This document shows positions 20,456 through 22,267 of a DNA stretch of 64,000 nt, in pieces. The notes beneath the pieces were generated by a model, which made no database searches, had not been told where the DNA came from, and worked only from the letters and a program-made list of their open reading frames with translations. Numbering within the stretch: position 1 is the stretch's first letter; each line of letters begins with the position of its first letter. This DNA comes from Aquabacterium olei (GTDB lineage: Bacteria > Pseudomonadota > Gammaproteobacteria > Burkholderiales > Burkholderiaceae_C). The stretch covers positions 620,001 to 684,000 of the forward strand of contig NZ_CP029210.1 in NCBI RefSeq assembly GCF_003100395.1. Direction: 5' to 3'. Both the position numbers and the translations under genes were made by a program.

Positions 20456-22267
20456 ATGAAATTCGTCGATGAAGCCACCATTGATGTGGCTGCCGGCAAC
20501 GGCGGCAGCGGTTGCATCAGCTTCCGTCGCGAGAAGTTCATCCCCTTCGGCGGCCCCAACGGCGGCGATGGCGGGCGGGGCGGGCACGTCTTTGTCGTGG
20601 CCGACCGCAACATCAACACCCTGATCGACTACCGCTACGCGCGTCGCCATGAGGCCCGCAACGGCGAGCAGGGGCGGGGCTCCGACCAGTTCGGCGCGGC
20701 CGGCGAAGACATCGTGCTGCGCATGCCGGTGGGCACCATCATCCGCAACTTCGAGACCGGCGAGGTGATGCTCGAACTGCTGGAGCACGGCGAGCAGAAG
20801 CTGCTGGCCAAGGGCGGCGACGGCGGCTTCGGCAACCTGCACTACAAGACCAGCACCAACCGGGCCCCGCGCAAGAAGACGCCGGGCTGGCCGGGCGAGA
20901 TGTTCAAGCTCAAGCTCGAACTGCGCGTGCTGGCCGATGTGGGCCTGCTGGGCATGCCCAACGCTGGCAAGTCCACCCTGATTGCCGCGATCTCGAACGC
21001 CCGTCCGAAGATCGCCGACTACCCCTTCACGACGCTGCACCCGAACCTGGGTGTCGTGCGCGCCGGCCCCGAAAAGAGTTTCGTGGTCGCCGACATTCCC
21101 GGTCTGATCGAAGGCGCCTCCGAAGGCGCCGGCCTGGGCCACTACTTTCTGCGTCACCTGCAGCGCACCCGACTGCTGCTGCATGTGGTCGATCTTGCGC
21201 CGTTCGACGATTCCGACCCGGTCCAGCAGGCCCGGGCCATCGTCAACGAGCTCAAGATCTATGACCAGGCGCTTTACGAGAAGCCGCGCTGGCTCGTGCT
21301 CAACAAGCTGGACATGATCCAGCCGGAAGAGCGCGTGGCCAAGGTGCTGGAGTTCGTCCGCCGTTATGGGTGGAAGGGCCCGGTGTTCCAGATCTCTGCG
21401 CTCACGCGTGCGGGCTGTGAACAGCTGGTCCAGACGATCTACCAGCATGTGGCGAGCATGCAGGAGCACCACCGCGACGCCGACGTGCGTTTCGATGTGG
21501 AGGCCAACCTGCCCATGGCGACCGACCTGATGGCCCAGGCCGGTCTACGTTACGACGACGACCTGGAAGCCCTGGTCAAACCGAAGAAAGACAACGTGAA
21601 GACTGCTGCCAAGACCCCCGCCAAGACCGCCACGAAAAAGGCTGCCGCGCAGAAGGAGAGCGCGAAGGCCACCGTGAAGAAGGCCACCGTGGCCGCCGAC
21701 GCGCCCGCCGTGAAGGCCGAAGCCGCCAAGGCACCGGCCCGCAAGGCGGCTGCCAAGCCCGCTGCCGTGAAGAAGGCCGCCCCGGCGAAGAAGGTCAAGG
21801 CCGCCGTTGTGCCGAAGGCAGTCAAGGCCGCCAAGCCGGTCAAGGCCGAGGCCAAGCAGCCGGCCAAGCCGGTGACCGCCAAGAAGGCGGCAGCCAAGCC
21901 CGCCGCGGTCAAGAAGGCCGCCGCCAAGAAGGCCGTCGCCAAGCCGGTGACCAAGAAGGCAGCGGCCAAGCCCGTGGCAGCCAAGAAGGCGACCGCCAAG
22001 AAGGCCGCTGTGACCAAGCCGGTGGCCAAGAAGGCGGCTGCTCCCAAGTCTGCCGTGAAGCCGGCTGCCGTCAAGAAGGTCGCCGCCAAGAAGGCCGTGG
22101 GGAAGACCCCGGCCAAGGCACCTGCCAAGGCCCCGGTGAAAGCACCGGCCAAGGCACCGGCCAAGAAGGCCGTCGCTGTGAAGAAGGCCGCCGCCAAGCC
22201 GGTGGCCAAGAAGGCCGCTGCCAAGGCGCCTGCCAAGAAGGTGGCGAAGAAAGCCGCCAAGAAGTAA
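20456..22267 (+). CDS. obgE: Obg/CgtA GTPase with long histone-H1-like C-terminal tail
   Basis: This 603-residue GTPase is needed for 50S ribosome maturation and stress control. Residues 1-160 form the glycine-rich Obg fold ([23 protein letters not shown]). The G domain follows with GMPNAGKST (G1), DIPGLIEGA (G3), NKLD (G4) and SAL (G5). The conserved protein ends near residue 374, the usual family length. From about residue 375 (base 21578) to the stop, about 229 residues are almost entirely Lys, Ala, Pro, Val and Thr in KKAAAKP/KAPAKAP repeats, like histone H1 or AlgP. The tail is in frame with no stop or start signal in between. Tailed Obg proteins may occur in relatives, but I cannot confirm this. 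Confidence 0.93.
21578..22264 (+). repeat. Low-complexity Lys/Ala repeat region inside obgE
   Basis: The stretch encodes imperfect reiterations of [12 protein letters not shown] and KAPAKAP units, built largely from the codons GCC, AAG and CCG. Such tandem low-complexity DNA is prone to length variation between strains. It also creates long meaningless open frames on the other strand. Confidence 0.85.

Follow-up and report, generated by a model that had tools for sequence, protein, structure and literature searches.

A long, strongly cationic C-terminal tail on the GTPase Obg of Aquabacterium, with a similar tail on its 50S partner RsfS

A window of 64,000 nucleotides from Aquabacterium olei (contig NZ_CP029210.1, positions 620,001 to 684,000) carries an obg gene, for an essential GTPase of ribosome assembly, whose frame runs on, behind the GTPase, into a lysine- and alanine-rich stretch. 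This locus raises the question of whether that stretch is part of a genuine Obg protein and, if so, what such an arm might do. A preliminary description had seen a normal Obg of 374 residues followed by a histone-H1-like tail. The enzyme is clearly recognized by profile searches: residues 4–158 match the glycine-rich N-terminal Obg domain (PF01018, 197.5 bits; cut-off 27), residues 161–284 match the GTPase domain (PF01926, 89.4 bits; cut-off 21.9), and residues 3–332 match the full-length equivalog Obg_CgtA (TIGR02729, 467.6 bits; cut-off 280.25). Residues 1–328 match E. coli ObgE (PDB 4csu and 7bl2), and a profile search found a single copy of PF01018 in the genome of the window. The assignment to Obg therefore stands by TIGR02729, but the normal part is shorter than had been described. 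Its folded core extends to about residue 340, and residues ~346–374 form a less conserved linker, with a majority-residue share of ~0.6 vs ~0.9 in the core (alignment of 33 Obgs) and two short, low-confidence helices in the AlphaFold model. The window gene encodes a true Obg/CgtA in which the C-terminal domain has turned into an extended Lys/Ala arm with predicted disorder; the calculated mass of the protein is 63.7 kDa (Table 1).

Table 1. Positions of the obg gene and its parts in the window, and of the other proteins with Lys/Ala-rich stretches in the same genome (C1, contig coordinates).
Feature	Position	Strand	Remarks
obg open frame	20456-22267	+	ATG start, 603 codons/aa, one TAA stop, uninterrupted
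Obg/CgtA core, residues 1-345 (glycine-rich Obg domain + GTPase domain)	20456..21490	+	PF01018, PF01926, TIGR02729, E. coli ObgE match
Linker, residues 346-374	21491..21577	+	contains a 24-residue stretch common to the terminal-tail clade; alignment n=33 Obgs
Lys/Ala/Pro/Val tail, residues 375-603	21578..22264	+	composition, autocorrelation, AlphaFold pLDDT, selection in relatives
RsfS, Lys/Ala tail of ~170 residues	L126:1362-2198, C1 ~1128361-1129197		TIGR00090, 108 bits
HU/IHF-like protein, Lys/Ala C-terminal tail	L161:1723-2160, C1 near 3356700	-	below HU equivalog cut-offs
Argininosuccinate synthase ArgG, Lys/Ala-rich extensions at both ends	L128:1647-3200, C1 near 2950150	-	
Excinuclease UvrA, short Lys/Ala insert (16 residues)	L125, C1 near 569640	-	locus partly covered
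Stand-alone protein, almost entirely repeats (13-letter pattern)	L127:2884-3420, C1 near 2422470-2422820		

The 229 residues of the tail comprise 70 Lys, 87 Ala, 26 Val, 23 Pro, one Arg and five Asp/Glu (31% Lys, 38% Ala), which gives a net charge of +66 (pI 11.1), compared with −3 for residues 1–374. Its autocorrelation peaks near lags 4–5, 9–10 and 14–15, corresponding to a quasi-repeat of 4–5 residues. The lysine-rich regions covered by a published survey of prokaryotic low-complexity sequences are reportedly mostly shorter. Confidence in the AlphaFold model is low (overall mean pLDDT 61.8), and its block means of ~40–54 across the tail, drawn from a shallow alignment of 24 sequences and accompanied by no secondary structure, are consistent with disorder. 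In being long, Lys/Ala/Pro-rich and predicted disordered, the tail qualifies as AlgP/PhaF-type, a likeness of composition only. The C-termini of Pseudomonas aeruginosa AlgP and of PhaF are reported to be of this kind and strongly positive, but these proteins are not GTPases, and AlgP possesses its own helical N-terminal domain (PMC9239181); the Obg tail may function like theirs. The composition noted in the preliminary description was thus confirmed, while "histone-H1-like", taken as homology, was not: the tail alone scores 18.9 bits against HC2 (PF07382; cut-off 40) and 13.3 bits against hist_H1_lk_Burk (NF038053; cut-off 80). Bacterial H1-like proteins resemble it in composition and in weak profile scores, but with values far below both cut-offs, and as part of a larger protein, the tail is by score not a member of the H1 family. 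A HMMER search of its own genome with the tail recovered Obg itself alone (150 of 696 candidates scored).

For the history of the tail, Obg was searched in 38 genomes of the window's GTDB genus, Aquabacterium (family Sphaerotilaceae; G000–G036 and G218), and the full gene was read in 33. A Lys-rich block of 12–71 Lys lies behind the core in 31 of these; G010 lacks the block, and G012 has few basic residues at this place. In nine of the 31, the block precedes a conserved DPRFR end; in the other 22, the clade to which the window belongs, that end is absent and the block itself forms the C-terminus. In a tree built from the core (42 rows, root drawn at the midpoint), the 31 block-bearing Obgs form one group (100/99), a branch (95/95) has all 22 terminal tails to one side, and the outgroups include G010 and G012. 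Most simply, the block would have been gained once within Aquabacterium, and the most economical order would be a gain in front of the DPRFR end, then growth of the block and loss of that end. Several tailed Obgs among similar proteins also carry the name Aquabacterium, and the Obg of A. parvum (L077) is identical to that of genome G033. When tail length is compared among congeners, the extension recurs but its length varies widely (Obg totals of 422–606 residues), and net charge rises with tail length (r = 0.94, 31 genes). Two proteins (P0049 and P0053) with identical first 340 residues have C-terminal parts of 150 vs 193 residues, a difference for which misassembly of the repeats is possible. 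Four same-genus assemblies (G002, G007, G009 and G030), two of them 98–99% complete, gave no Obg match, and a fifth (G014) gave a partial one; repeats may break the four assemblies at obg. The longest tailed Obg among the matches listed (P0060, 702 aa) has 354 residues behind its DVRFD motif and a net charge of +69, and it still ends in DPRFRR.

Substitutions among the relatives bear on whether the tail is maintained as protein. Since dN/dS in a repeat tail varies with the alignment, the greatest weight was placed on one gap-free pair (L017/L020). Behind the core, this pair differs by 37 substitutions, of which 1, 3 and 33 fall at codon positions 1, 2 and 3, a distribution that points to selection on the tail as protein. 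These substitutions change five amino acids, whereas in 1000 random trials the mean was 25.8 and the lowest value 18; a stop would arise in 71% of such trials. Across 13 chosen pairs, dN/dS was 0.02–0.30 behind the core and 0.01–0.06 within it (for one pair, the core value is undefined). Most pairs show changes in lysine columns, such as 14 of 59 in L008/L012; in L018/L020, all 36 of 36 were retained at 0.62 synonymous differences per site. Judged from these patterns, the tail in Aquabacterium relatives is under purifying selection as a protein, more loosely than the core.

Such a tail sets this Obg apart from its homologs. The C-terminus could be parsed in 71 of 104 other Obg loci, two of which proved to be Aquabacterium; in the remaining 69, the net charge behind the core ranges from −27 to +1, vs +66 in the window. 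The neutral or acidic end usual for Obg, which is not strictly a defining trait, is accordingly missing here. Family-wide, 295 of 299 genomes gave an Obg match, and among 17 long-looking frames outside the genus, chosen among the matches listed, 14 lack a Lys/Ala tail, two (G277 and G346) show a Lys/Ala/Glu insert that precedes a DPRF end, and one is joined in frame to ProB. Obg proteins like those of G277 and G346, some named Roseateles, reach a net charge of +4 to +10 in the rows examined and are separate from Aquabacterium on the core tree. A phylum sample (Obg match in 192 of 200 genomes) contained, among the matches listed, two non-window frames longer than 500 aa (G446 and G536), both without a basic tail. 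Among the Obgs read, the tail is therefore seen as confined to one genus, with a milder and separate insert in Roseateles-like genomes.

E. coli ObgE is the same enzyme, its domains follow in the same order, and its GTPase domain is likewise followed by a disordered C-terminal domain. That C-terminal domain has ~50 residues and 24 Asp/Glu, compared with 229 residues at net +66 in the window; judged by sequence, the Aquabacterium Obg carries the opposite charge at the same C-terminal position. The acidic domain of ObgE (24 Asp/Glu of 50) is reported to drive binding to YbiB, via a positive groove of the latter, and ObgE competes with DNA for YbiB (PMC10123104). It was invisible in the 50S complex and dispensable for 50S binding and anti-association (PMC4028186). 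The same source describes Obg C-termini as very different between species and ascribes species-specific Obg phenotypes to them (PMC4028186).

The Obg tail is not the only one of its type in the genome. Two exact pattern scans, which stretches without those motifs would escape, returned six Lys/Ala loci: Obg, RsfS, an HU/IHF-like protein, an insert in UvrA, ArgG (at both ends) and a stand-alone Lys/Ala protein that matches no Pfam family. The last of these (L127) is the best match to the tail DNA among five own-genome Lys/Ala loci (68% identity, 102 bits; the highest score among 40 codon shuffles was 66 bits), a similarity that might reflect an origin of the tail by recombination from another Lys/Ala gene but that repeat order alone could yield. 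Lys/Ala-rich ends are odd for a metabolic enzyme such as ArgG. The known function of ArgG is not nucleic-acid binding, so Lys/Ala tails are not limited to nucleic-acid binders.

RsfS is, like the tailed Obg, a 50S-binding factor with a Lys/Ala tail, but with a different fold and a different binding site: it is reported to sit on uL14, beside bL19 and helix 95 (H95; PMC7125091). A K-rich RsfS tail is present in all 37 genus loci read (of 41 genomes searched, 38 gave a match), including those of G010 and G012, whose Obgs have no comparable block; the two tails thus need not co-occur. The family's other genera show it in all 29 loci read, which were the best-scoring from a search of 150 genomes, 146 of which gave a match. 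Beyond the family, the occurrence of the RsfS tail within the order is patchy: it was seen in eight of 43 loci read out of 57 matches, i.e., in one of 30 best-scoring loci and in seven of 13 chosen for long frames. The Obg tails are nested inside the group with RsfS tails, and on this distribution the RsfS tail is the older and more widespread of the two. ObgE and RsfS occur together in PDB 7bl2–7bl5, and a contact between them on E. coli pre-50S particles has been reported (Obg–RsfS; PMC11505724, PMC10693566). RsfS is further reported to stimulate GTP hydrolysis by ObgE, and the contact is not essential, since RsfS is missing from some structures (PMC11505724). In the window's lineage, two touching 50S factors therefore carry like arms, RsfS having acquired its arm first, a link that was found post hoc and is to be weighed as such.

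The reading favored here, tentatively and at somewhat less than an even chance, is that a selected polycationic arm holds Obg on phosphate polymers, most likely the rRNA of the maturing 50S subunit. We infer that the arm would be a disordered polyelectrolyte without sequence specificity that raises the affinity of Obg for such polymers, the most likely one being 23S rRNA. Its exit point from the GTPase domain would be close to the sarcin-ricin loop, the stalk base and RsfS with its similar arm, and it would prolong the retention of Obg on pre-50S particles or ease their capture, with GTPase action as in other Obgs. The place of the GTPase domain and the role of RsfS are the reasons for choosing rRNA first. 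This reading is supported by the recurrence of the block in a single clade of congeners, by selection and by the rise of charge with length, as well as by the charge contrast with the other 69 Obgs, the RsfS tail and the ObgE–RsfS contact. Further support comes from a survey of prokaryotic low-complexity regions that links those rich in lysine to nucleic-acid binding and reports them in ribosomal proteins (PMC6821194). Against it stand the faster evolution of the tail than of the core, the changing lysine positions, the Lys/Ala ends of ArgG, and G010 and G012, in which RsfS is tailed but Obg has no comparable block. Since E. coli ObgE binds 50S without its C-terminal domain (PMC4028186), the arm would not be needed for basic function.

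Other partners for the arm rank behind rRNA. Polyphosphate comes next, as an improbable candidate: under starvation, the arm would bind polyphosphate and either store Obg (and RsfS) on granules or tune ribosome assembly to the polyphosphate level. AlgP, which has a KPAA-rich C-terminal domain and a net charge of +55, is reported to associate with polyphosphate granules, whose spacing requires its C-terminus (PMC9239181), and all seven new polyphosphate binders of an E. coli screen were tied to ribosome biogenesis or translation, two of them being mapped to lysine-rich regions; ObgE and RsfS, however, go unmentioned in the main text of that screen (PMC12345225). A tether to the nucleoid, through which the arm would bind DNA and couple Obg to the chromosome, was suggested in the preliminary description and seems less likely still. 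It would fit the H1/AlgP/PhaF-like composition, the HU-family protein and UvrA among the Lys/Ala-bearing proteins of the genome, the view that the PhaF tail tethers granules to the nucleoid (PMC9239181) and the disturbed DNA replication and chromosome segregation reported for E. coli Obg dysfunction (PMC4028186). Yet in its folded part the protein is an ordinary 50S-binding Obg, its like-tailed partner is a 50S factor, and all curated H1-like models remain below cut-off.

The arm might also have no partner at all. GC-rich repeats may slip and grow at a permissive C-terminus, with selection merely keeping the frame and purging harmful residues, an explanation put on a par with the nucleoid tether. 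Tail length is indeed very labile, often with near-identical cores, the tail evolves faster than the core, and unrelated proteins of the same genome bear similar stretches. Tolerated expansion sits poorly, however, with retention of the block in 31 of 33 congeners, with the steady increase in charge, with the complete lysine columns of L018/L020 and with the five residue changes of L017/L020 where 25.8 were expected. A frameshift, an assembly error or a separate H1-like gene with an internal start is highly improbable and was rejected. The window does have a GGAGG 11 nt before an ATG in the linker, but this GGAGG occurs in six of the 21 alignment rows listed, and the ATG is missing in four (LPTG). 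Separate assemblies of 31 congeners all keep the frame open, nine of them continue in frame from the block into DPRFR, and the bias toward codon position 3 indicates selection on the protein. The in-frame, strongly cationic extension that had been described is thus real, and these data point neither to an end near residue 374 nor to a frameshift at the junction, either of which would have undone it. In a more far-reaching but unlikely reading, the Obg–RsfS pair, whose members meet on the late pre-50S, may have acquired its two arms in succession, first that of RsfS (family-wide and in some related families) and then that of Obg (within Aquabacterium). The two would form a multivalent module by which large subunits are held or concentrated on rRNA, polyphosphate or the nucleoid as they mature, and which would stand, with inverted charge, in place of the acidic E. 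coli Obg C-terminus.

Lysine-rich low-complexity regions are already known from ribosomal and DNA-binding proteins, often at the C-terminus and linked to nucleic acids; the word GTPase is absent from the main text of the survey that describes them (PMC6821194). What is new here is a genus-level polycationic C-terminus on the known Obg family. In searches of one open-licence library, no description was found of a lysine-rich, positively charged or histone-like Obg (CgtA) C-terminus, nor of an Aquabacterium Obg, and among the matches listed for RsfS with lysine-rich, all appear unrelated by title. The confinement of the tail to one genus, the inverted C-terminal charge and the RsfS tail of the same type lay beyond the view of the preliminary description. 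Aquabacterium offers a natural charge inversion with intermediates, in which the block precedes DPRFR, and with tailless relatives in the same GTDB genus; therefore, the role of the Obg C-terminus can be tested by comparison and simple deletion. The RsfS tail turns this into a concrete hypothesis, that polycationic arms hold late 50S factors, and provides a link to reports of polyphosphate-binding lysine-rich regions in ribosome-linked proteins (PMC12345225).

The long family frame that includes ProB lies in genome G251 (L108:518-2749, minus strand), where Obg and the next gene, proB, share one continuous frame of 744 aa, as either a fused gene or the result of a missing stop. A protein of 597 aa (P0072) also has both Obg and ProB domains.
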